Positions 44,501 through 63,992 of a stretch of 64,000 nucleotides of DNA are shown piece after piece. Under the pieces are notes generated by a model. The model saw only the letters and a list, made by a program, of their open reading frames with translations, was not told where the DNA came from and did not search any database. The stretch's first letter is position 1, and each line of letters begins with the position of its first letter. The position numbers were made by a program, and so were the translations under genes. The DNA is from Aphrocallistes beatrix (taxonomy: Eukaryota; Porifera; Hexactinellida; Sceptrulophora; Aphrocallistidae): NCBI GenBank assembly GCA_963281255.1, contig OY725492.1, positions 3,959,104 to 4,023,103 of the forward strand. Direction: 5' to 3'.

Positions 44501-47473
44501 TGCAAATTGAGAGTGAGCATCTGAGAGAGTTCGTGAGAGACCTGAAAACAGATAAGGATTTTCTGAATCATCAGCTAGAAGATTCTAAGAATAAAGCCAG
44601 CCTATCGGAACGTATTATAGATGGACTGCAACTCCAACTCCAAGAGACCCAGGGCCTCTCTTGCCTCGCAGACCTGTCTCAGGACGCGGAGACGACCAGC
44701 GACCTGGATCGAGCGGTGGAGGAGAGGAATCAACTGCTAGAGTCGAACAAGATATTACAGGACAGCAACGATGAGATCACGGCTGAGAACCAGAAGATAC
44801 AGCAGCAGCTACGGATGACGCATAATCGGTACAAGCAGGCTATGAAAGCGTTGGGTGGTCGTCCGTTGAGTGGGAAAACGCGCGCGTCTCCGCTCATTCC
44901 CCGCCACAAAAGCAAGTCCCTAGTGGAGCCTCCTCAGGTGGAGGCGGAGGGAGACACCAGCCCCACCCCAGAGAGGAAGACCAACCTCATGGGCGAGATG
45001 ATAGAGCATGATTTGCAGGTGAATATATACGAATTAATAGTGTGTACTGTTTCCTATATAGTCTACTTTGTTTCTACTCCGATCTACCTTCTTTCCTATA
45101 TCGAATGGTCTTGACCCTGCTTTTATCTAGGAAATCGAATCCGCATGCATAGCATCACGATATTAAAATGTTGTCCTTTTGAAATGTAGCTTATTAATGA
45201 GAATCTACCTTAATTAGGCAATGGAGAAGAAACGCTTATCTCACTTGGAAGAAGTGAACTTGAAATTGGAGCAGAGGTTGGAGGAACTTGAGAATAGTAT
45301 CAGACTTTCGGATTCTAAACTGTTCGATTCAGAGCGAGAGAGGGACAGAGAGAGACGCAAGAGAAAGAAGGAAGAGAAGACGATAAATTCTAAGATAGCA
45401 GACCTGGAATCTGATAATAATCAGCTGAGAGAATTGGGATTAGGTGCTGAAGAGAGGCTGAGAGACATCCAATCGGATATCAGCCAAAAAATGATAGAAA
45501 TAAGTGAGCTCGGTAAAGAGTTGAATTCACTCACGCTTAAATTAACCGAGTTAGAACTCAAGAACAAATCCCTCACAGATCAGATCAGAAACCTGGAAGA
45601 GTCAGTCCAAAATGCAGAATTGAGGGAACTCAGTGTTTCTGTTGATAGGTCCGCTCTACGTAAAGAAGTGCAGGAGCTGCAGTTCCAGCTGTCAGACTCT
45701 AAGTCTAATTACGAATTAAAATTGGCAGAAATGCAACGATTGCTCTCAGAGGCAGAGGCAGCTGTCGGGAAGGAGACGAGTAGGCTCATGCTTGAGAAAG
45801 AACAGGAAATACAGCGCATGCATCAGGACATAGAATCGGCAAATCGCACAGTGGAAGAGTTGAAAAGAGCGCATAAAGAAGTGGTGACAGAGCTAGAGGG
45901 GAGGATAGGATACCTGGAGAATAGTCTGGCTGAGGTGACTGAGAAGCATAGGAGCGAGGTGGAGAGTATGTTAGGGGAAATTCAAAATGCCGCGGAGAGA
46001 GACAAAGCTAGCAGAGATGAGAAACTTGCCATCAAGCTCAAACTGGCAGAGTCTCTCTCTCAGCTGGATGAAGTTACCAAAAGTCGCGATTCAGCAGAAC
46101 GTACGAGAACTCATTTGTCTGAAATTCTTGACCACCATAAATCAGAATGGAAACTCGCTGTAGAACAGCTTGAGGCGGAAGCAGCTAGCATCTCTACAGA
46201 TATGGAGTTGAAACTTGATACAGTTTACGCTAGGTTAAGCCGGTGTGAAGCAAAAAGCAAACTATTATCGATTGATAAGGAAACAATGGCCACTCTAACT
46301 CGACAGGTAGATCACTTCCGTAAGCAAACAGAAGGGTTAGCAGAAATAAGTATTCAAAATGATCAGTTGCAGAAAGAGTTGGAAAGCGTTTGGCAAGAAT
46401 TGGAGAGCTTAAAGGCTGAGAAGGACAGAGAGAACGAAACACATTTTGACCAAATAACTGATTTCAAAGACAATATTGAATCCTTGGAAGAAAAGCTCCA
46501 AGCAGTGAGTTTGCAGGCGGAGCTAGAGAGAAGTGAGTTGGAGGAGAGTATAAAAGGGTATGAGGAGCACGAGAAGTTGTTGGTTGCAGAGTATCAAATG
46601 AGAATTTCTCAGCTGCAAACTAAGTTCGAACAAGAAATAGCAGACCGATCACTTGACGATGAGAACTATGTGGCTGAGATCGAGAGGCTAATGTTCCAAC
46701 TGAGTGAGAGTAAGGAAGAGATGCATCTGATTCGTGATGATAGCCTCCAGCAGATAAAGACTCTGAGAGAAAAGGAACTTGCTGCTGTCTCTTCGATGAA
46801 TGAGTTCAAAAAGAGTAAGGAAGTAGAGATTACGCGGCTAAGGAGCACTTTGTTAGATCATGAGTCTAGGATGAGATCTCTCTCGAGCACGAATGAAGCG
46901 AACAAACTGGAAATATTGCATCTAACCAGGGAGGTGGATGGCGTTAGTAGCGAGTTGAAGTCTGCCCGTAAAGCTAGACAGCTGCTGGAAATGCAGCTTG
47001 GGAGTAATCGAAAGGAGCTAGAAGGAGCGAAACAGCTGCAAGCTCGAACCCGTGCGAATCTGGAAGAGCGCGTCCGGGAGCTGGAGATTAATCTCCGCGA
47101 GACAGAGGAGGGAAAGGAGCGGAGTCTATCAGAACTCGAGTCCAGATTCAGTCTACAGGTGAGGGATCTCAAGACGGAGATTGAGAATAGACAGGCAGAA
47201 GTTAGAGCGTTGAAAATGCGGTTGATAGAATTCGATTCTGTGAGAGCGGGAGAAGAGTTGAATGTGGAATGGAAGAGTCACATCCAAGAACTCAACTCAC
47301 AGATAATCGAATTGGAGAGACAACTGAGATCTAGAGACGCCATCCTGGAACAGGTGCGGAAGGAGAGGAGAGAAGCACAGGAATTTAAACGGAGTATTGC
47401 TCAGCTTTCGGAAGAGAAAGAAGCACTCCTCTGCATCATAGAGAAAATATCCTACCTGGCAGTTGCAGACTGA
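41526..47473 (+). CDS. ninein/NINL-like centrosomal protein, 6 exons
   Basis: Exons 41526-42186, 42426-42616, 43638-44072, 44191-44427, 44488-45018 and 45218-47473 join in frame to 1436 residues, similar in size to ninein-like protein. An EF-hand pair lies near the N-terminus: loop D51-E62 (DNDNDGFIDSRE) and loop D89-D100 (DVNSSGKIAFRD), both with good calcium ligands. Residues 110-350 are Ser/Pro-rich and probably disordered, followed by a second EF-hand-like helical unit ('LTELFQVLGFDRNEV'). From about 430 to the end is continuous coiled coil with Leu heptads. This order (EF-hands, linker, EF-like unit, long coiled coil) is that of ninein, which anchors microtubules at centrioles. Sequence identity in the rod is uninformative, so other EF-hand coiled-coil proteins remain possible. 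Confidence 0.75.
43010..43510 (+). repeat. composite dispersed repeats in ninein-like intron 2
   Basis: Bases 43010-43330 match 54270-54490 and, in part (43173-43290), 56280-56400; shared blocks include GTCGTACAATGATTTCTATT and GGGGTCCAAGCTATAAATAG. Bases 43340-43510 are about 1.3 copies of the 'GTAAACAAAT / CCCCATGTCAACCGTTGGAA' module found at 49605, 54030 and 62000. Confidence 0.8.
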
Positions 47474-51337: not shown

Positions 51338-52066
51338 ATGGACATAAGTAGCAGCATGCTGGAACAGCAAGACCCTACCCACCAATCCCGCGTGTATCTC
51401 AGAGAACTCAACCCCTACATCACCTGCTACATGTGTGCCGGGTACCTGATAGATGCTACCTCCATCACTGAGTGCAACCATCGCTTCTGCAAGTCCTGCA
51501 TCGTACGGCACCTCCAATCCAACTCCTGCTGTCCCGAGTGCGATATTCCTCTCAACGGGACCGACCCCTTCTCTTGCCTCGCTTTCGATCGGAGCATACA
51601 GGACTTGGTTTACAAGCTGGTGCCAGAGCTGGAGTTGCGTGAGTACAATCTACGCGCCGAGTTTTACAAGTCGCGCAACATGGAGGTCCCCAACTTCAAC
51701 CTCCGAGAGAAGAAACCGCAGGCATTCATTCACCCGGGAGAAATGCATTCCCACAGTCGGGACCAGAAACTATTTCTAGAAGTTCGCCCCCATCCGTCTC
51801 TGGAAGACTTTAAAGACGCTAACCTCAAGGCGATGCCGCACAAAAACGTTCGCTGCTCTATGCGCACACTGGTGTCCCACCTGAAGCGATTCATCAACTG
51901 TCGAGTGCAGGTACCGCACCCCTACGAGCTGGAGGTGCTGTGCAATGATACGATACTGGAGAAGGATACAAGCCTCAAGAACGTGTACTTGGAGATGTGG
52001 GCAGCGCAGAAGAAGGAGCTGCCTATCTGCATCTACTACACCGTCAAAAGAGCCTCTCATAGTTAG
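51338..52066 (+). CDS. PCGF1: Polycomb group RING finger protein, PCGF1-like
   Basis: Intronless, 242 residues. PCGF proteins pair with RING1/2 in Polycomb repressive complex 1, which ubiquitinates histone H2A. The RING is complete: C30, C33, C46, H48, C51, C54, C65, C68 within 'LRELNPYITCYMCAGYLIDA' and 'TECNHRFCKSCIVRHLQ', followed by 'SIQDLVYKLVPEL'. The C-terminal ubiquitin-like RAWUL domain ('VRCSMRTLVSHLKRFI', 'ELEVLCNDTILEKDTSLKNV') ends in 'ICIYYTVKR', nearest to PCGF1 among the family as I recall it. Only 171 bp separate its stop from the SMC4 start, so SMC4's promoter must be very short or overlap it. Confidence 0.9.
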   Translation: MDISSSMLEQQDPTHQSRVYLRELNPYITCYMCAGYLIDATSITECNHRFCKSCIVRHLQSNSCCPECDIPLNGTDPFSCLAFDRSIQDLVYKLVPELELREYNLRAEFYKSRNMEVPNFNLREKKPQAFIHPGEMHSHSRDQKLFLEVRPHPSLEDFKDANLKAMPHKNVRCSMRTLVSHLKRFINCRVQVPHPYELEVLCNDTILEKDTSLKNVYLEMWAAQKKELPICIYYTVKRASHS

Positions 52067-52237: not shown

Positions 52238-55200
52238 ATGGCGGCGGCAACAGCCAGTCCAGAGGCCGTCTCTCCTCCGCCCCGGCTACTGATCACACAC
52301 ATCGAGGCTGAGAACTTCAAGTCGTACGCGGGCAAGAAGATCATCGGTCCATTCCAGCAGAGATTCACGTGCATAATCGGACCGAACGGGAGCGGGAAGT
52401 CCAACGTGATAGACGCAATGCTGTTTGTATTCGGGTACCGAGCTAAGAAGATACGCTCCAAGAAACTGTCCGTCCTCATCCATAAGTCCGCTAAGTTCCC
52501 GAACATCCGCAGCTGTAGAGTGACCGTGTTCTTCCAGCAGATACGGGACCTTACTGACACTCAGTACGAGGTAGCCGAATGGAGTTGATATCTGCGTTCT
52601 TTCATTTTGATTTGTTAGTGGGACTTATAGTTAAAACGTCAGCATAAAGTTCTACTAAATAGAAGACTAATATATTTATCAGAAAAATGGAATTTTGATT
52701 TTGATTGAAATCCCACGTTTCTGATCGAAGTTCCACATTGGTTTTCTGATCAAAATACACAGTCTGCTGAATAGCCTGGTGTATTCGTCCATTAATTTCC
52801 ATTTTGACTAGCATGGTTTGATAGGTGGTAGAAGGAAGCCACTTCCAAGTGTCTCGTGCTGCACACCAAGACAACACGTCTGAGTACTTCCTGGATGGAA
52901 AGAAGGTCACCTACAGAGAAGTCACTGAGCTACTCAAGAACTACGGAATCGACCTAGACCACAATCGGTTTCTGATCCTACAAGGAGAAGTAGGTACCTT
53001 CCAGTTCAGAATGGGAGAGTAATTGTTGCTGTAGTTTGATTAGCCAGCAGTTTGTAGTTATATTAATTTTAAATCTATTGTCTGACAAACCACATTTCTA
53101 AGTCGTTTCAAATTACTGTTGAGACTGATATAGGTGGAGTCTGTTGCACTGATGAAGGCGAAGGGTCAGAATGAACATGATGAAGGAATGCTAGAGTTTC
53201 TGGAAGATATCATCGGTACGAGTGAGTATAAGGAGACTATAGAAGAGCTGTTTAAAGAATATGAAGAGTTGCAGAACACGCGAGGAGAGAAAGTGAATAG
53301 GTAATTCGGAATAAAAAACCTATGCAAATAATATTTTTTCACACGTAGTTAATCTTATTTCCTCTTCCTGGGATTTGAATTTTTGAAAACTCAGAGAGTA
53401 TATGCAGTTAGATTAATGGATATTGAATTATTATTTTAAATGTTTTAATATTGAGTACTGCTACAATTTAATCACCACTCCTTATATTGCTTTATGCTAA
53501 TTCCTATTCTCCATTGAGTTAGGCTGAAATTTGTTGAGAAGGAGCTGGGTCAGCTAGAGTCAGCTAAAGAGGAGGCAGAGCAGTATCTGAAGCAGAGAGA
53601 CAAGCTCACTCAATGTCGCTACAGACTCTACTACAAGTATCTGTATGACGTGAATAAGGAGAGGTCCGTTGTCAGTCAGGAGTTAGACCAGCAGAAAGAG
53701 GAGATTGCCAAGTTCGAAACAGCTGTCGAAGAAGTAAGTATTTGAAGTAACGGCGTGAAAGCTATCTTATATATTAAAAACAATGATTTTTGTTTGTTTG
53801 TTTATGCAAAGTTGATTGAGGAACTGCTAGAAATGTGAAATTTAGCACACATGTAAATCAGTCTAGAAGTGTGCTGCTGACTAATCAAATTCGATTATTT
53901 TTAATGCAAATATATTGGGATCAAACAATATTGACTTACAAGCACGCTTCGCTTGCTTGCGCTGCGCGGCTTGCAGACACTGCATGTCCCCAGAGTCGCC
54001 CTAAGTTACTCAATCTAACATATTTAGGGAATTTTTTTTCCTTTATATAAATATTGTAAACAAAATTTAACGAATAATTTCTCATATGGATCCGAAAATA
54101 TAATATTCGAAATCTACACCCCTGAAAACCCCATGTCAACCGTTGGAATCTAGTCTCTAGCATATTTTTCAAAATTCGTCAAATGGCGTGAAAATATGTA
54201 TATAAAGGTGTGAAAATATGCACATAATATTTTTTATTGCTATACACTATAATACATTTAAGATATCAAACATAAGTTGTGGCTTTGAAGTATTAATAAC
54301 AATGACGATATATTGTAGTGTCGTACAATGATTTCTATTGTGATAGTGCAGTCATTTATTTTGTATAGAAAATGTGTGAAAATTTGTTTCCCATATTTTT
54401 TGCAGAGGTGTGAAAATTTCGCTTAGATCTTAGAACTTAATCGTAGTAATATCATTTGACACCTACATGCCAATTTTCATATCTCTACGACTTGCCAATT
54501 CTTCGTGTTTAAATGTTTAAACATAATGTATTTAAACGTGTTTAAACATGTTTAAACATGTTTAAACATAATGTGTTTAAACGTGTTTAAACGTGTTTAA
54601 ACATGTTTAAACATGTTTAAACATTGCGTTTGACTTGTAGAAGTCAAGTTCGATCAAGAACAAGCAGAAAGTACTGAAGGAGAAAGATAAACATTTGGAA
54701 AAGATGAATGAAGCAGAGGAGAAGAAGTCTACTTCGCTGTGTGAGTGTGAGAGGAGAGATGTGAAGGCTCGAGAGGATCAAAAGAGGATGAAATCCAACC
54801 TCAAATCTCTGAACAAGAATCTGGAGAAGGAGAGACAGAAATTGGAAGATCTCAAAACCGCTCCAGATCGTCTAGCTCTCGAGATAGAACAAGGAGAGGA
54901 GAGGAGGACAGAGATGGAGAAGTCTCTCTCAGTAGAAGACCAAAAGTACGAACATACTTATATTTTTACTTCCTTTAATTTGGGGTCCATTCTATTTATA
55001 GCAAAGACACACATTTTTTTGACATCCTCGCTCAAAAATGAGATTGCTATGCTGGGTTTTAAATGTAGTGACTCACAGGTTAGTGCAGTGGTTCCCAACC
55101 TGGGGTCAATGGACCCCTTAGTGTGATCCATAGAATATATCAGTGGTTCCACAGGGTTCGAAATTTTGTATTACGGTTAATTTCACAGAATGTACGAAAA

Positions 55201-58200
55201 TTGCTATCAGGGGTCCACAGCCAAAAAAAGGTTGAAGACCGCTGGGTTAGTGCCTATATACGATCACAGGTTGGAGAAAATAATGTCAGGCTTGAGAGGA
55301 GCAACGAAAGACCTCCAGCAGGAGAAAGAGAGGAAGGAGAGCGTGCTGCTGTCAGTGAGGGAGAAGGTGGACCAGGCTAAGGCGGACCAGGACATGGCAG
55401 GGGCGGAGTATGACGTGTACATGAGGAAGGTGCGGGAGTACGAGAGTCAGATCAAAGACAAACAGTTCAACCTGGAGGACTACCAGAGGAAACTGCAAGG
55501 TAGGATGGAGGTGTCAACATTTCTAATAAATGCATTATTATATTCAAACTTTCATTCAATAACTTTATTATTTATTTACGACAAAGCAATTGTGTTAACG
55601 TAGTGAGCATGCTAGAAGCTAGCTGGAGGTGAGTTTATTTTTCTTCGGGAGGTCCTGTGAAGAGCTGGTTCCTTTCCTCTTCCTGCTGGTGGGAGTAGAA
55701 CTACGGCTAGACGTCTGGTTCCCGCCTGTCTCCCTCTCCTCTAGGTTATCACTGTCGATATCAGTCAGTTTCATGTTTTCAGGGAGTGTGTCGTATTTCA
55801 GTTTTAAACTACCCATTTCAAACTCGGCAGCTTGTACCGCGTTTTTCAGATCTAGCAGCAGGAGGATGTTGTTCCTGAGCACATTGAACTGCGTGGTTAC
55901 CTTCTCAGTGGCAATAGGCTTAATCCCGATGCTCAGATCATCTAGGATGTGCTCCATCGCTTTAGCTCGCTTGTTGGTCATGGTGTTAGGTACCTTCAGT
56001 CTGTAGCTGCGCAGGTAAGGACCTGCGCCCCTCTCTTCTGTGATCTTGTTCAGGTGCTTGGTCACGCCGGTTCTATCCCTGTCCCTGTCCCGCTCCTTCC
56101 TGCCCTTCTCCTTCTTCTTGCTGGAGGAGCTGCGCTTGGTTTTGTCTGAGGCTTTCTCGTCTGTAATTTCTACTTGTTCTATCAACTTCTGAGCTGTCTG
56201 GGAAATCCTCTCTCGCTCCTATACCATGTGTGTAACAGTAATCTTAGGCAATGGAACGTCGAACTTAATAATAATTATCCCCTCATTGACAATGAGTTTT
56301 GCTTGCTCATTTCCGGTTAAGTCATTTTGGGCGGGGAAGCCATAGAAATGTGGGGTCCAAGCTATAAATAGAATGGACTCCAGGTCATTGATGTGTAAAC
56401 TTACTATTTTGAAAATCGAAACTTACTTTATAGTAGAAGTGTGCAGGTAATATACTTAGTATAAGCATAAGTATTGACATACGCATGCACCTACCTTCCT
56501 CCTGTACTCAATCTTCTTCACCTCCTCGACCAGATAATCGTGCTCCCCTATCTCCTCCTGAGTCCGGGAGTAGAGCAGCTCCAACTGCTCCTTCCGTAGC
56601 TTCTCATGCTCCACGTCGTACGCCACTAACCTCTCCGACAGATCCTCCCCCGGCACTGCTCGGAGACTGGCAGTGCGGTTGCAGAGGGTGTAGTAGCGAT
56701 CCTTCAGATCCTCGACTGACCGCGAGGGAAACCTCGTGGTATCATAACGGTCCTGTAGAGTCGAATTTTGAATACAATGCCCATCTAACTGAATGGTCAA
56801 GGTTACTTGCCTTTATCACGATGAATCTTAGGTCGAATCTTCCACACAGCTCACACAAATGCCTCGTCTCTTTTAAAGTCCAGTCAGAGCATCCCAGATG
56901 GCACCTGTACTCCTCGTCACTGAAGTCAGGAATGCTGACTTTGTCGTTGTACTTAGCGAAGGGGTACGCTTTCCCTTCCTCCCCCACCCTCGCCCAGTGG
57001 TAGAATATCGCACTGTCGCTACGGGCTGGGTTCATGAACGGCGTCAATTTCCAAGGCCTCACTCGCTGCAGTCCCAGTCTGGCCTTCATCTGCTTGTAGC
57101 CGAGGTTGGTGTCGATCGGGAGGTCTGGGAGGAGCTTCTGCACCCCTTCTCCTTCCCGCAGCGCCTTCACTTCCCTGTTCGTTCCTTCTGGGACCACAGC
57201 TGCACTCTGGGTGCGCTTCCGGAGTTTCTTGTTACTGCCTTGTGAGAGGACTTGTTCCTTTATACTCGTACCTTCGCGGTTTTCTTCACCCTCTCTCCCT
57301 GCCAGGATTTCCTTTGCATCTTTCGCAGTCATAATAAATAAGCTAAAATCAAGGAAGTTATTCATAACTGATATGAATTGGATTGGATGTGAGTAGATTA
57401 ATTCATTAAATAATTCTCATTTTAGCCAATACTTCATTATGTGAAGAGCTGAGGCGAAAAGTTCCGAAACAGAAACAGGAGATACAAAGCTTGGAGAGAG
57501 AGATCGAGCAGTACTCTCAAATGGAGGCTTCCCTGACACCTAAATTGGAAGGAACGCAGCGACAGCTCGTGGAAGGAAGATCTTCTCTCTCTGCACATCA
57601 ATCTCGAGGTAGCTGCTGAATCAGTTTATATATAATTAATCCGTTTTGTACCCATAATCTATTTGAAACAACATTTGTAAGGAAAAATTCTGGAAAGTCT
57701 GATGATGGCAAAAGACGCAGGCCACATCCCAGGGATCATCGGGCGACTGGGAGACTTAGGTAAGTTCCTTCGCTCTCTATTCGCTACACTTTATTAGTCG
57801 ACCTAATTCTGCTCTTGCACTCCTATTAGAAAGATCCATAGTAATACATTGCAGTAAACTATAAATAGAAGTGATATTACCTAGACCTGCTGGCAAATTT
57901 GAATACAAGGATAGTTCATGGCTACGAAAGCCGTTTTTGATACACCACAAGATGACGTCACTACGTCACAAACTCCACAAACACTCCCCGAGTCCTCATC
58001 TGCACCTAGCCCACCCGGTAAGTCCCCGACCCCCTGCATCCTGGTGCTGGGGATGGCGGGCGCGGGTAAGACCACATTCGTCCAGAGACTAGCTGCAGAG
58101 CTCCACTCGAAGAAGACGCCCCCTTACATCATCAACCTGGATCCCGCCGTCTTGAAGCTGCCCTATCCAGTGAACATTGACATACGCGACACAGTCAACT

Positions 58201-61200
58201 ACAAGGAAGTCATGAAGCAGTATAACCTAGGCCCTAACGGAGGAATCATGACCTCCCTCAACCTATTCTCCACTCAGTTCGATCAAGTCCTGAAGTACAT
58301 TGAGAAGCGAGCGGATGAGCATAGCATGGTGATATTCGACACACCTGGGCAATTGGAGGTTTTTACTTGGTCCGCTTCTGGTACGATCATAACGGACACA
58401 CTCGGACAGACGCTGCCTACCGTTGTGGTGTATGTGATGGACACCTCGCGGAGTGTTAATCCCACCACCTTCATGTCCAACATGCTGAATGCATGCTCCA
58501 TCCTCTACAAGACCACTCTGCCCTTCATCCTGGTCATGAACAAGTGTGACATCATAGACAACGGCTTTGCCTTGGAGTGGATGCAGGACTTCACAGCATT
58601 TCGCCAAGCTCTCGCCGACGAGACAAGCTACATGTCGAGTCTCGTGCAGTCGATGAGTTTAGCTCTGGAGGAGTTCTATGCGAATATCAACACGGTAGGC
58701 GTCTCCTCTCTCACGGGGTTCGGAATAAAGCAGTTTCTCGTTGCAGTTGATAAATCAATGGGAGAGTACTGGGATTATCTCGCTCGTAGAAAGAAACTTC
58801 AAGAACAGAGAGAGAAAGAGGAAAAGGATAAGAAGGAGGAGAAGTTGACTAAGATGAAGAAAAGGAGCGGGAAAGGAGACAAAGTGAAGCTAGGGCTAGA
58901 TCTGGCTATCAGGCCTGAGTCTGATTCTGATGACGTGGAAGGAGGCAGCCAAGACGAGTACAGTGCTGAGCTAGCAGATGATTCTTTGTTTTAGAAAAAA
59001 AATGTATTGAATGGATTATTGTGATGAAAAAAATTGACAATTGTGAATGTACAAACTACATGCAGGTATTGAAATAGCTTTGGGTCCAGGCATAGGCGTC
59101 GTCGTAACCCACCCGGTTACCCGGCAATGGCCGGGCGGCCCAGAGGGAATGCCGGGTAGTGCCCGGTCTCCCGGGTGCTACCCGGTTAATGACCGGGTAC
59201 AACCCGGTCATTCAGAAACGAGGGAAAAGGAGCGATATTAGAAATGAATTTTTGTTTGTAGCTTCCATCGATCAGAAGTTCGACGTCGCTATCAGCACTG
59301 CTTGTCCATTCCTGGAGCACATCCTGGTGGACACAGCGGACACCAGTGTCCTGTGCATCAAGTTCCTGAAGGAGCACAACCTCGGAAGAGCCAGTTTCTC
59401 CATTTTGGATAAGATGGAGGTGAACAGACCTCAAGCCACTAAACCCTTCCACGGCCCTCCAGGGTTTCCAAGACTATTCGATCTCATTCACGTAAGTTTG
59501 TTTTGTGAAGAAGCGTTTATGGTAGATGAGAATGCACAACATTGTGTGATACTTAGACAGCTTCTTTACACGTATTAGATTCAAGATGATAAGCATATCC
59601 CAGCGTTTTACTATGGAATGAGAGATACACTCGTTGCCAGCAACCTTGAAGAAGCAACGCATATAGGTTAGTAATAGAATCACATAATTCAGGAATTCAT
59701 TTTTGATGGATATGTTTCATTCTTATTATTTCTTATAGGGATGGGAGCTGGGAAAAAGGAACGTTACAGAGTTGTGTCCGTAGCAGGGGATCTAGTTGAG
59801 AAGAGCGGTACCATGTCAGGAGGAGGGAAGAGCGTGTCTAGGGGGAGGATGTCTGCTCGGGTTCAGATGGATGTTACGCCAGTACAGGTACGAAATATTT
59901 TAACAAAATTGTTCACTAAACCAACTCATACTAATCTTCAAAAGACATAAATTATAACACTTGCGAAATCAACTACCTGTATTCCATTAATTCATAATTT
60001 AAGTTTTCGTGATGAGTTAGTATTTAGACATAGTACTGACTATTTGGGTTGGGTGTTGATCTTTCAAATGTAGTAAACATTTTTTAAAATTCTTATAAAA
60101 AGAACCTGGTTCGTCTGGGGCTCGAACCCAGGACCTTCTGCGTGTAAAGCAGACGTGATAGCCACTACACCAACGGACCAAGAATAGTGGTTTTGGAATC
60201 TGTTCTTTTTATCAATATCTGCAACGCATAATTGCTAGCCAAGCAGAACAACTGAACTTAACCCAACCTGAGCCAACCTGAGCCATGATAAAAACGGGAC
60301 GCAGCGTTGAATTTCGCGGGACATGGCGGGACGCAATAGAAAAGTATTATACATGAATTAAAAAAAAGGGGGACATAATGGGGAAATTTCATGTAATAGC
60401 GGGACACTCGAGAAAATTAGCTCAATAGAAGAGTGAAAAAAGCGGGACGTCCCGCCAAAAACGGGACAGTTGGCAAGTATGTTAAGGTGTGAAAATGCTA
60501 TATACAAGTGTTACAACAGCGTCGAATGGTTTGCATGTCATGGACGGTCTGGTCCGTGTGTCCACGCAGTCGCGGGCCATTCCTTTCGAAATCTAATAGT
60601 CCGATTGCTATCAAATTCGGTATTAGACCAATTTGTGGTATTGAAAATAGAGTTAAAGGAGTCATTACAAGCATTTTTTGTGTAATTCTAACCGCACTAG
60701 CTACTTTTTTTTAATTTTTAAGCTGAGTCTCGTAATACTTAAAACTTATTTAATATAACCTTGTATTTAATTGACACAACAACTGAACATTTCATAAAGT
60801 TGTGCTAAATGTATGACAATAAAAAGGAGGGTTTCTATCCGCATCTATGCCACTCTGTTTTATAGAAAGTGTGCATAAAAGAATATCATACACCAACTAA
60901 GATCTTCGTGTTGTCGCCCTCAGTGTTTCAGTTCAACATAAGAGTCAGTAGGAGCAATATGCTGAGTGTCAGCTCATCACTGGGCAGGGCTTTAATGCAC
61001 GTAACCAATTAATCTAAAACTTGGAGTTATCTGATAGGGTATTCTAAGAATTCCTTCTGAATACTGTATCATAGTAGTACAGAAATGGAGGTTCAATCTA
61101 GAAGTTTCAGAAATATTCCACCCCGAAATAAGGGAAATTTTTTCGATCCCAATCGGTCAAAATGCAACTTGACTCTTCTCTTAAAACAGTATTTAATATT

Positions 61201-63992
61201 GGAAATTAGTTTGAAAATGATATCTCAGATTTTGATTTTCGGAGGAGACTTAATTAATTCTGGTACGTTCGTAAAAAAATCTATTTAATTATCCGAATAA
61301 GAGATCTCGTGAAAAGTAATTTACTCTCTAACTCTTGAAATTTATTTAATGGAGAATGTTCCGCAGTCCTCTTCTGTCTAGATCGAAGGTCTTGAGAAGG
61401 ACTCAGCTAGGATAAGACACGAGATCGAGGAGTATCAGAAACGGAAGCGAGCAACTGAGAGCAAACTTTCATCACTGAGAACGGAGGTACAAGAAAATGA
61501 CAGTAAACTACAGAAAGCTGCTCTGGACATAGACTTCTGTGCTGAGCAATGCAAAGTATATGAATCCCAATTGTCAGAGTTGGGGAAGAATCAAGTTACT
61601 GTTGATCCAAGGAGAGTAGAGAAGCTGGAGAGGAGAGTAAAGGAATTTCAAGACGTCTACAGTCAGATTCATGCTCAGTTTGCTAAGTCGGAAGCTGCTG
61701 TGCAAAAGTTGGATGAGAAGATCAAGGCTGTTGGAGCTGATAAAGTGGAGGCTCAGCAGAGCAGAATTAACACGATAAAGAAGGAGCTAGACGGGATTAA
61801 AAGCGCTATTTCTAAAGCCAAAGTGAGTTATAGTTATTGCGAAATTTCAAAATACGTATATAATACACGTAATTATATAATAATTATAGAATAATTATAG
61901 AATAATAACAAGCGTGCTTCGCTTGCTTGCGCTCCGCGGCTTTCAAACACTGCGTGTCTGCACAGTCGCCCTGCGGGCGCCTGGTGTTACTCAATCTAAC
62001 CTATTTTGGGAATTTTATATAAATATTGCAAACAAAGGTTAACAAATAATTTATCATATTGAACTGAAAATATAATATTCGAAATCTACAGCACTAAAAA
62101 ACCCCATGTGAACCGTTGGAAGCTATTCTCTAGCCTATTTTTGTGATTTGTTTACTTTATGTATCTATTGCAAACAAAAGTAAACAAATGATCATCAAAT
62201 TTACTCGAAAATATGATATTCGAAATCTACACCCCTTAAAACCCCATGTCAACCGTTGAAAGCAAGTTTCTAGCATATTTATGAGATTTGTTTACTTTAT
62301 GTATCTATTGTAAACAAAATAATTATTATATAATAATCATATAATTATTTTATAATAATTATATAATAATTATATAATAATTATATAATTATTTTATAAT
62401 TATTATATAATTATTATATAATTATTATATAATTATTATATAATTATTTTATAATTATTATATAATTATTATTGTAAATTATTCTTCGGCATCGATTAAT
62501 CGTCGCGTTGTGCCTCGGTATTTCCTCCCAATTAAGCTGCTGTTTGTTGGAAGCATGCTTCAGCTCAAGGTTGAAACCGCTTCAACCAAATACCAATTTA
62601 ACCGAATAATGGGTAGACCAAATAATTTGGTTAACCGAATAATTCGGTCAACCGAATATTTGGTCAACCAAATAATTTGGTCAACCGAATAATTTGGTCA
62701 ACCAAATAATACTTGATTATAGTTTTGCATAAATGTTTATATAAATATTTATATAGTAGGCTATGGCCTACATGTGATTATTGTGTTGGGAAAGCATGCA
62801 AATTACTTGTTTGGCTAAATATTCAGTTGACCAAATTATTTGGTTGACCAAATTATTCGGTTGACCAAATTATTCGGTTGACCAAATTATTCGGTTGACC
62901 AAATTATTTGGTTCTCAACCGAATACCAAATAATGATATTTGGTTACAAACCAAATATCAATTATTTGCAAATAATATTTGGTTAAACCGAATAATCAAC
63001 TATTCGGTTTCAACCCTGCTTCAGCTCTTAAACAAAATTTAAATTTTAGTAATTAAACTACATCTAAGAATCTCGTAACTAGACTTCGTTTTAAAATTCT
63101 TTTTGAGTGAAAATTAGCTTTCATTTTTAACAGATCAGCTGCTGATATCCTAATGGAAATTATTTGCAATTTAATTTCGGAAAGCTTGCCTATTATTCAT
63201 TGTCAATCAACAGGTTGGGATAGCCTCCAATGAAAGGAATATCAGCAAGTGTACTGATCAAATAGAATCCTATGAGATGGATATGAAGGAGGCGGAGAAC
63301 AAGAAAATAACTATTTCAGAGGATCTCTCTGCCTTAGAGCAGGACGTATTGCGGATAATGGAAGTATTTGAGAAAGCTGTGGAAGGGAGAGACGAGCTGA
63401 GGGAGGAAGTGGAACTGATAAAGAGTGAGTTGACTGAACTCACGAACTTGCTCAACAAACAGAAGTATGACCTCCAGGACTTGAAGCATGAGAAGGAAAA
63501 GTGAGAACTTTGCTAATAGGATCAATCCAAGTAGGAGATCCAAGCTAGATTGGATTTGGGAACTCCATATTCTATGATTCGAGCTTGAAACTAGAAAACT
63601 GACTTTTACCACAAGCAATTTTTGATACAATAAAATTTTGAAAAAATTTTGTGATCTACTAACCACAACATAGATACCTGCATTTTATCTGTTTGCATAT
63701 TATTAGACAAGATGCTATAATGAAGCAATACAAAGATAAAGAAAAGAACTACAAAGAGAAGTTGAAGAAACTAACATTTGACGGTTCTCCTCCCGACCCA
63801 CCCACTGAAGAGATGCTGGAGCAGATGGTGAAGGAGGATATGACGACAGAAGTGTCGGTGGAAGAGGAGAAACTGAGCATAATGAAACCTAACCTAGCTG
63901 CGATAGAGGAGTACAAGAAGAAAGAGGGAGTTTACGTCAAAAGGTCCGAATTGATCAGCCATTATGATAATGCGCATTTACATACTGAATAG
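52238..63992 (+). CDS. SMC4: SMC4, condensin ATPase subunit, 14 exons, C-terminal part missing
   Basis: SMC4 pairs with SMC2 in condensin. Exons: 52238-52570, 52825-52989, 53134-53300, 53523-53733, 54641-54945, 55270-55499, 57426-57608, 57682-57759, 59262-59491, 59579-59666, 59739-59887, 61382-61822, 63214-63500, and one starting at 63707. Junction phases all agree. The Walker A '[20 protein letters not shown]' is in exon 1 and the SMC4-type '[16 protein letters not shown]' in exon 2. Long coiled coils flank the hinge in exons 8-11 ('[12 protein letters not shown]', 'FDVAISTA', '[15 protein letters not shown]'). The last exon reaches '[18 protein letters not shown]' and then a stop at 63990-63992, before the signature and Walker B head. 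A donor inside this exon (perhaps AAAAG|GTCCGA near 63942) with exons beyond the window is more likely than a true end. DMAP1 lies in intron 6, GPN1 in intron 8 and a tRNA in intron 11. Confidence 0.93.
53938..54185 (+). repeat. dispersed repeat (GC-rich head plus one module) in SMC4 intron 4
   Basis: Head ACGCTTCGCTTGCTTGCGCT, then one 'CCCCATGTCAACCGTTGGAA' module; same family as 49605-50190 and 61905-62325. Confidence 0.8.
54270..54490 (+). repeat. second dispersed repeat in SMC4 intron 4
   Basis: Matches 43010-43330 with the middle part missing: shared GTCGTACAATGATTTCTATT, TTTTGCAGAGG.GTGAAAATTT and TTGACACCTACAT.CCAATTT blocks. Confidence 0.78.
54506..54624. repeat. tandem GTTTAAAC palindrome array
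   Basis: About nine GTTTAAAC octamers (plus near-matches) spaced every 10-12 bp by AT or GT linkers (CATG, CGTG). Each unit is its own reverse complement. It ends 16 bp before SMC4 exon 5, where a polypyrimidine tract would be expected. Confidence 0.93.
55086..55244. mobile_element. 159-bp hAT-type MITE in SMC4 intron 5
   Basis: Ends CAGTGGTTCCCAACCT and (inverted) CAGCGGTCTTCAACCT, flanked by the exact 8-bp duplication GGTTAGTG (55078-55085, 55245-55252). The CAGNGGTTC ends are those of animal hAT elements. It makes up about half of intron 5 (54946-55269). Confidence 0.92.
55619..57332 (-). CDS. DMAP1: DMAP1, DNMT1-associated protein 1, nested antisense in SMC4 intron 6
   Basis: Exons (5' to 3' on the minus strand) 57332-56811, 56752-56495, 56218-55619 give 459 residues, close to the usual length. 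DMAP1 is a SANT-domain subunit of the TIP60/NuA4 acetyltransferase and SRCAP complexes. Clear family blocks: '[20 protein letters not shown]', '[20 protein letters not shown]', '[19 protein letters not shown]', SANT '[20 protein letters not shown]', '[20 protein letters not shown]', and the DMAP-binding C-terminal half. Junction 1 works only if the 58-bp intron begins GCAAGT after AAG, a GC-AG intron. The ATG at 57332 is chosen over an upstream in-frame codon because it aligns with the family start. Intron 2 (56219-56494) contains a dispersed repeat. Confidence 0.94.
56280..56400 (+). repeat. dispersed repeat piece in DMAP1 intron 2
   Basis: About 118 bp nearly identical to 43173-43290: TCATTGACAATGA, CTCATTTCCGGTTAAGTCAT, GGGGTCCAAGCTATAAATAG. 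It contains a TATAAAT that could mislead promoter prediction. Confidence 0.82.
57918..58994 (+). CDS. GPN1: GPN1 GTPase, nested in SMC4 intron 8
   Basis: Intronless, 358 residues. GPN1 (XAB1/RPAP4) is a GPN-loop GTPase needed with GPN3 for assembly and nuclear import of RNA polymerase II. Motifs: G1 '[10 protein letters not shown]' (45-54), the family-defining Gly-Pro-Asn loop in '[16 protein letters not shown]' (105-107), G3 'FDTPGQ' (140-145), G4 'NKCD' (208-211). A Lys/Glu-rich C-terminal tail ends with an acidic stretch. It is on the same strand as SMC4, entirely within intron 8 (57760-59261), so its mRNA must arise from its own promoter in about 160 bp, or the SMC4 intron must be processed around it. 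Confidence 0.96.
59100..59215. repeat. GC-rich CCGG cluster downstream of GPN1
   Basis: About nine CCGG sites (ACCCGGT, CCGGGT and variants) within 115 bp of otherwise AT-rich intron. It includes the perfect inverted repeat AATGACCGGGT / ACCCGGTCATT with a 3-base loop (about 59188-59212). Confidence 0.85.
60107..60179 (-). tRNA. tRNA-Val (anticodon TAC), in SMC4 intron 11
   Basis: 73 nt on the minus strand. It folds as a cloverleaf: acceptor GGTCCGT/ACGAACC, D-arm containing GTGTAGTGGCTATCAC, anticodon stem TCTGC/GCAGA with loop TTTACAC (anticodon TAC), and T-arm CTGGG-TTCGAGC-CCCAG. The GTAGTGG A box and GGTTCGAGCCC B box are intact and a TTTTT terminator follows (60097-60101 on the plus strand). 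Acceptor pair 4-69 is C-A, a mismatch, so the gene may be slightly impaired. Confidence 0.93.
60276..60483 (+). repeat. GGGAC-type dispersed repeat in SMC4 intron 11
   Basis: Inverse of 47695-47888, same family as 3160-3270. The right end ACGGGACAGTTGGCAAGTAT is well conserved. Many CGGGAC motifs inside. Confidence 0.88.
61905..62325 (+). repeat. dispersed repeat (GC-rich head plus 2-3 modules) in SMC4 intron 12
   Basis: Head GCGTGCTTCGCTTGCTTGCG, then two to three modules with CCCCATGTCAACCGTTG and TTTGTTTACTTTATGTATCT. Same family as 49605-50190 and 53938-54185. Confidence 0.85.
62326..62480. repeat. AT-only palindromic microsatellite
   Basis: Runs of ATAATTATTATATAATTAT-like sequence with no C or G for about 150 bp, directly after the dispersed repeat. 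Confidence 0.9.
62567..63017. mobile_element. 451-bp foldback element with 10-bp target duplication
   Basis: The exact direct repeat GCTTCAGCTC flanks the block (62557-62566, 63018-63027). Ends are inverted: left AAGGTTGAAACCG, right CGGTTTCAACCCT. Both arms consist of a roughly 16-bp motif, TTGGTCAACCGAATAA and variants, repeated many times and inverted across a short AT-rich centre. A 9-11-bp duplication suggests Mutator-type mobilisation. It lies in SMC4 intron 12. Confidence 0.88.

Follow-up and report, generated by a model that had tools for sequence, protein, structure and literature searches.

The SMC4 gene of Aphrocallistes beatrix is best read as a single host gene of 16 exons whose long introns house independent genes for DMAP1, GPN1 and tRNA-Val(UAC), and probably a small antisense gene as well. 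We assign this reading a probability of about 0.82. For DMAP1 and GPN1 the entire coding sequence, and for tRNA-Val(UAC) the entire tRNA, lies inside a single SMC4 intron. At the level of the DNA sequence, the reading frames are complete, splice sites are present and SMC4 is continuous across the host introns. Each resident is most likely its own transcription unit.

The window, a stretch of 64,000 nucleotides (C6:3959104-4023103), belongs to a 100.5-Mb assembly of 28 contigs, and the locus sits within a contig of 5.59 Mb. The downstream flank, L009, overlaps the last 2 kb of the window and extends 7.9 kb past it; window position equals L009 position plus 62000, and positions past the window are given as extended coordinates. 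The splice search for SMC4 used GT donors and AG acceptors with an open frame imposed, starting from boundaries set by eye. It found a model with 15 introns that is unique except at exon 5, where three bases are ambiguous, and in which base is taken as the last. The two proteins obtained are near-identical, with a one-residue difference at exon 5. The gene encodes 1208 aa and runs from an ATG at 52238 to 65107 (extended coordinates), beyond the window. The original prediction had placed its end at 63992, which corresponds to an in-frame stop within intron 14; exon 14 ends at 63943 and two further exons lead to 65107. The exons, all defined by the splice model, are as follows.

52238..52570, plus strand, SMC4 exon 1 with the ATG at 52238 (Pfam SMC_N, 1.3e-29)
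52825..52989, plus strand, SMC4 exon 2
53134..53300, plus strand, SMC4 exon 3
53523..53733, plus strand, SMC4 exon 4
54641..54945, plus strand, SMC4 exon 5 (alternative start 54644, frame open in both)
55270..55499, plus strand, SMC4 exon 6
57426..57608, plus strand, SMC4 exon 7
57682..57759, plus strand, SMC4 exon 8
59262..59491, plus strand, SMC4 exon 9, in which the hinge continues (also PDB alignment)
59579..59666, plus strand, SMC4 exon 10
59739..59887, plus strand, SMC4 exon 11
61382..61822, plus strand, SMC4 exon 12
63214..63500, plus strand, SMC4 exon 13
63707..63943, plus strand, SMC4 exon 14, the last within the window
64046..64337 (extended coordinates), plus strand, SMC4 exon 15, modelled on L009
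64877..65107 (extended coordinates), plus strand, SMC4 exon 16, modelled on L009

From these coordinates, the introns that bear residents measure 1926, 1502, 1494 and 539 nt. The remaining introns span 72-324 nt, except for intron 4 (907 nt) and intron 12 (1391 nt), both of which contain repeats. Diverged copies of one repeat block are common to these two introns (53938-54176 and 61908-62289), and intron 12 also carries AT-rich near-perfect palindromes (62318-62473). A dispersed repeat with the core CTATAAATAGAATG was seen in four copies, near 43 kb (43254), in a DMAP1 intron (56363), in an SMC4 intron (55000, minus strand) and downstream of SMC4 (L009 ~8647).

The spliced SMC4 protein gives a single alignment to SMC4 in the PDB (9f5w_B), covering residues 13-1206 with an E value of 4.2e-290 and 968 bits. 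The paralogues score far lower, with 269 bits for the best SMC1A match, 154 for SMC2 and 150 for SMC3. By exon-length arithmetic, the resident-bearing introns fall at residues ~470, 557, 713 and 1132, and the alignment is ungapped at the first three of these junctions. The GPN1-bearing intron splits the conserved hinge, across which the alignment is continuous, and the last intron separates the signature motif from Walker B. Because one unbroken alignment runs over the junctions, with the GPN1 intron inside the hinge and the last intron between these two motifs, SMC4 is, as judged from its sequence, a single host gene. The original prediction had stated that the exon phases agree across the resident introns, and had named a division of SMC4 into two or more separate genes as one outcome that would overturn it. 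An open-frame model exists and the alignment spans all the resident-flanking junctions that had been noticed, so both points are settled in its favour.

The alternative, that SMC4 is two or more genes or that GPN1 is an alternative SMC4 exon, appears extremely improbable. It can draw on nothing more than the other ORFs that lie between the SMC4 exons. Against a division into separate genes, the SMC4 pieces join in an open frame and the hinge aligns gap-free over the GPN1 intron. Against an alternative exon, a stop stands immediately before the GPN1 ATG, and escaping it would require an acceptor inside the GPN1 frame. We consider it equally far-fetched that an assembly error has joined unrelated loci. 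One run of 200 N is present in the window, but it lies at 2393-2592 and is the sole gap; the sequence between 52 kb and the SMC4 stop is free of N. The frame is kept across every SMC4 intron, searches for further copies of the residents found none, and several independent errors would be needed, each exactly intronic.

The three residents were found where the original prediction had placed them: a complete three-exon DMAP1 on the opposite strand between exons 6 and 7, an intronless GPN1 on the same strand between exons 8 and 9, and a minus-strand tRNA-Val between exons 11 and 12. Splice model, Pfam and PDB matches bear this out for DMAP1, a single 358-aa ORF with Pfam and PDB matches for GPN1, and both ARAGORN and Rfam RF00005 for the tRNA.

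DMAP1 occupies the interval between the end of SMC4 exon 6 (55499) and the start of exon 7 (57426), and encodes 459 aa on the minus strand.

56811..57332, minus strand, DMAP1 exon 1 with the ATG (Pfam SANT_DAMP1, 4.5e-17; splice model)
56495..56752, minus strand, DMAP1 exon 2 (splice model; its SANT_DAMP1 piece alone scores 26.9 bits, below the cut-off of 29.1)
55619..56218, minus strand, DMAP1 exon 3 with the stop (Pfam DMAP1, 5.2e-31; splice model)
55564..55576, minus strand, two AATAAA hexamers starting 43 and 50 nt past the DMAP1 stop, within SMC4 intron 6

The SANT_DAMP1 and DMAP1 domains are located on different exons, and the splice model unites them into one protein, which gives one match to DMAP1 in the PDB (8qr1_F, residues 4-405, 3.4e-97). 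DMAP1 intron 1 (56753-56810) is of the GC-AG type. An assembly search for a second DMAP1 returned only the gene's own three exons, a count that is a lower bound. The DMAP1 ATG is separated from SMC4 exon 7 by 93 nt; if more than this is needed, the DMAP1 promoter overlaps SMC4 exon 7 or lies beyond it.

The tRNA gene is flanked by SMC4 exon 11 (ending at 59887) and exon 12 (starting at 61382).

60106..60180, minus strand, tRNA-Val, a cloverleaf with anticodon TAC, in SMC4 intron 11 (ARAGORN; Rfam RF00005, 61.5 bits, E 2.1e-11)

A 34-base piece of it has zero other matches in the assembly at up to 3 mismatches. A looser tRNA-Val(UAC) pattern gave five matches, of which ARAGORN accepts one, the copy in the SMC4 intron. 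The other four are at chance level, since a reversed-pattern control gave six. The gene may thus be the only tRNA-Val(UAC) in the assembly, although these searches are lower bounds. It is surrounded by an exact 11-bp inverted repeat (60095-60105 / 60202-60212), which could be a pair of T runs resembling terminators or the trace of a mobile element. Among 20000 random flank pairs, 2 have such a repeat, in a test that was picked after the observation.

GPN1 lies on the same strand as its host, between the end of SMC4 exon 8 (57759) and the start of exon 9 (59262).

57860..57867, plus strand, TATAAATA, a candidate core promoter starting 58 nt upstream of the GPN1 start codon
57912-57914, plus strand, in-frame TAG directly upstream of the GPN1 ATG
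57918..58994, plus strand, intronless GPN1 in SMC4 intron 8, one ORF of 358 aa (Pfam ATP_bind_1, 2e-80; PDB 9t5j_B GPN1, 2e-115)

The product is a GPN-loop GTPase, and the PDB scores place it nearest to GPN1 (389 bits against GPN1 versus 73 against GPN3). Any reading that enters from an SMC4 exon through an acceptor upstream of the TAG ends at this stop, so the simplest reading is that translation of GPN1 begins at its own ATG. Downstream of the gene, neither AATAAA nor ATTAAA occurs for 1363 nt; SMC4 and the following WD40 gene are likewise without a nearby one.

An assembly search for GPN1 gave one full match, as a lower bound. Two further GPN-family matches each lie in one open frame, the first 31% identical over a frame of 276 codons and the second 27% identical over one of 274, suggesting that few introns are usual for the family in this genome. 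Both GPN1 and DMAP1 are presumably working genes, because other copies were not found.

A recent origin of GPN1 by retroposition into the SMC4 intron is unlikely. Its lack of introns and the 8 A's directly after the stop fit such an origin, and the authors of the Aphrocallistes vastus genome suggest that retrotransposed new genes are maybe a main breaker of synteny there (PMC10282587). However, the assembly search did not find an intron-bearing second GPN1, and the other GPN-family matches are also single open frames. The longest exact direct repeat common to the GPN1 flanks measures 9 nt, and no clear target-site repeat is seen. An old retroposition followed by loss of the replaced parent is possible.

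The last SMC4 intron, outside the window, contains a candidate fourth resident.

64614-64375 (extended coordinates; L009:2375-2614), minus strand, ORF of 79 aa in the 539-nt last SMC4 intron

Its codons are coding-like, with a score reached by 0 of 2000 shuffles of its own letters, while an ORF of this length arose in 184 of 2000 shuffled copies of the intron. Every Pfam family stayed below the cut-off and the best PDB match has an E value of 0.12. By eye, the predicted protein is coiled-coil-like. The ORF is probably a small protein gene.

In the arrangement we propose, each resident would have a promoter of its own, and splicing of the SMC4 pre-mRNA would skip over the residents. DMAP1 would be an antisense unit and tRNA-Val(UAC) an antisense Pol III unit. 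A short GPN1 mRNA would start in the 158 nt that follow SMC4 exon 8, perhaps at TATAAATA, while a long SMC4 pre-mRNA would share the same DNA, with GPN1 there being discarded intron sequence. These 158 nt do contain TATAAATA at a plausible distance from the ATG. Over 13.6 kb, however, the plus strand contains TATAAA seven times, and the same 10-mer recurs in a dispersed repeat; the position of TATAAATA before GPN1 may be due to chance or derive from a repeat. An independent GPN1 promoter is favoured by analogy with human KTI12, which lies in TXNDC12 (PMC3192792).

SMC4 is part of a same-strand gene run with operon-like spacing, comprising a RING/RAWUL gene (51338-52066), SMC4, a WD40 gene and ribophorin II, and extending to L009 6862. 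Successive gaps along the run are 171, 243 and 578 nt. Promoter space is locally short, with 171 nt from the stop of the preceding gene to the SMC4 ATG.

This spacing would also suit a different, operon-like route, in which GPN1 has no promoter of its own but is excised from the SMC4 pre-mRNA and receives its 5' end by spliced-leader trans-splicing upstream of the ATG. Trans-spliced leaders have been reported in A. vastus (PMC10282587) and are common in Hormiphora (PMC8527503). The best acceptor-like AG before GPN1 scores 5.9 bits and lies 88 nt upstream of the ATG; a 9.5-bit acceptor is found 27 nt upstream of the ribophorin II ATG and a 6.6-bit acceptor 7 nt upstream of the 79-aa ORF. Yet acceptor scores before 16 gene starts are at background (median 5.71 vs 5.67), and 2411 of 5000 random sets score as high, with a matrix built from 17 introns only that discriminates weakly by leave-one-out scores. 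In A. vastus, only 4% of long reads carry a predicted leader (PMC10282587). Searching our assembly with 29 bases of the Hormiphora leader gave zero matches at up to 3 mismatches, which leaves room for other leaders. We regard trans-splicing of GPN1 as improbable.

A broader version is slightly more doubtful still. In it, SMC4 and GPN1 would have the SMC4 pre-mRNA as their common precursor, intron 8 would be thrown away in some cases and turned into a GPN1 mRNA by trans-splicing in others, and tRNA-Val(UAC) would be tied to SMC4 transcription. If it were true, one transcript would yield either a subunit of condensin or a factor for the import of Pol II, and the sole tRNA-Val(UAC) gene found would depend on SMC4 transcription. 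Transcription of each resident from its own promoter remains our preferred reading.

The surrounding genome is compact and intron-poor, and long open frames without introns are numerous. Its assembly size of 100.5 Mb exceeds that of two published glass-sponge genomes (80.32 and 61.46 Mb; PMC10282587). Within the window, a 751-aa open frame (45218-47470) uses codons in a strongly coding-like way but matches no Pfam family. An 18S stretch occurs at 8 places in the assembly; on C1 (~5.62 Mb), C6 (~3.04 Mb) and C7 (~2.50 Mb) the matches form pairs of opposite orientation separated by 4-16 kb. A homeodomain search gave 19 matches; it proceeded exon by exon, so that the counts are lower bounds. Classing 18 of the 19 by eye, we take one to be Msx-like, two Bar-like, one NK-like and two paired-like. 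The further types, also presumed by eye, are POU, LIM, SIX, HNF and four TALE-like, with two unplaced and none Hox-like. The published Oopsacas homeobox list is similar in types, with two NK-like and six TALE-like genes there versus one and four here, our counts being lower bounds. This small homeobox set and the numerous single open frames suggest a glass sponge, although the larger assembly speaks against it. A ctenophore, which published nested genes and spliced leaders had first brought to mind, fits less well, given these homeobox types and the lack of a match to the Hormiphora leader piece.

The nesting in SMC4 is real, and gene-within-gene arrangements are common in compact animal genomes. 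In A. vastus, 2432 of 19,578 genes (12.4%) are reported to be nested in introns (PMC10282587). Hormiphora californensis has 2357 nested genes in 1654 hosts, 484 of them doubly nested and many on the same strand as the host; one host with four nested genes is described in a figure legend (PMC8527503). With such numbers, the original description of the locus as unusual is weakly founded. Its question of how a same-strand GPN1 mRNA is separated from the SMC4 pre-mRNA is a real one, but the problem was already known from KTI12 in TXNDC12 (PMC3192792). Across five well-annotated animals, same-strand overlaps are under-represented, and 75 nested parallel pairs are still listed for human (PMC2330155). 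The available portion of the A. vastus nesting account (PMC10282587) makes no mention of SMC4 or the genes nested in it, and our literature search for DMAP1, SMC4 and GPN1 together found nothing. The cited nested-gene literature, in the portions available, did not tally the hosts that carry at least three residents.

Because nested genes have been published for A. vastus, and same-strand and multi-resident cases for Hormiphora, we view the SMC4 nest as a fresh instance of a known pattern. While this type of arrangement is documented in thousands of cases, the locus is a clean, well-resolved one, with several unrelated core genes within one host gene. It should be useful for testing how an animal whose genes are compact keeps a same-strand resident apart from its host, and whether expression of the host is limited by its residents.

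The locus resembles A. vastus in its setting, which is likewise a compact genome with many single-exon transcripts and intron-nested genes (PMC10282587). With Hormiphora it shares the presence of several residents per host and of same-strand residents. Two of the four genes in the Hormiphora figure are doubly nested, whereas none of the SMC4 residents was seen to be, and the leader there is found on at least 56% of Iso-Seq reads (PMC8527503). The closest parallel for GPN1 is KTI12, which also codes for protein in one exon and lies within an intron of a same-strand host. In KTI12/TXNDC12 minigenes, an SV40 promoter replaced that of the host; KTI12 was transcribed even when this promoter was absent, and its presence disturbed upstream splicing. 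That pair has been tested with minigenes, while GPN1 and SMC4 are known here as a sequence arrangement (PMC3192792).
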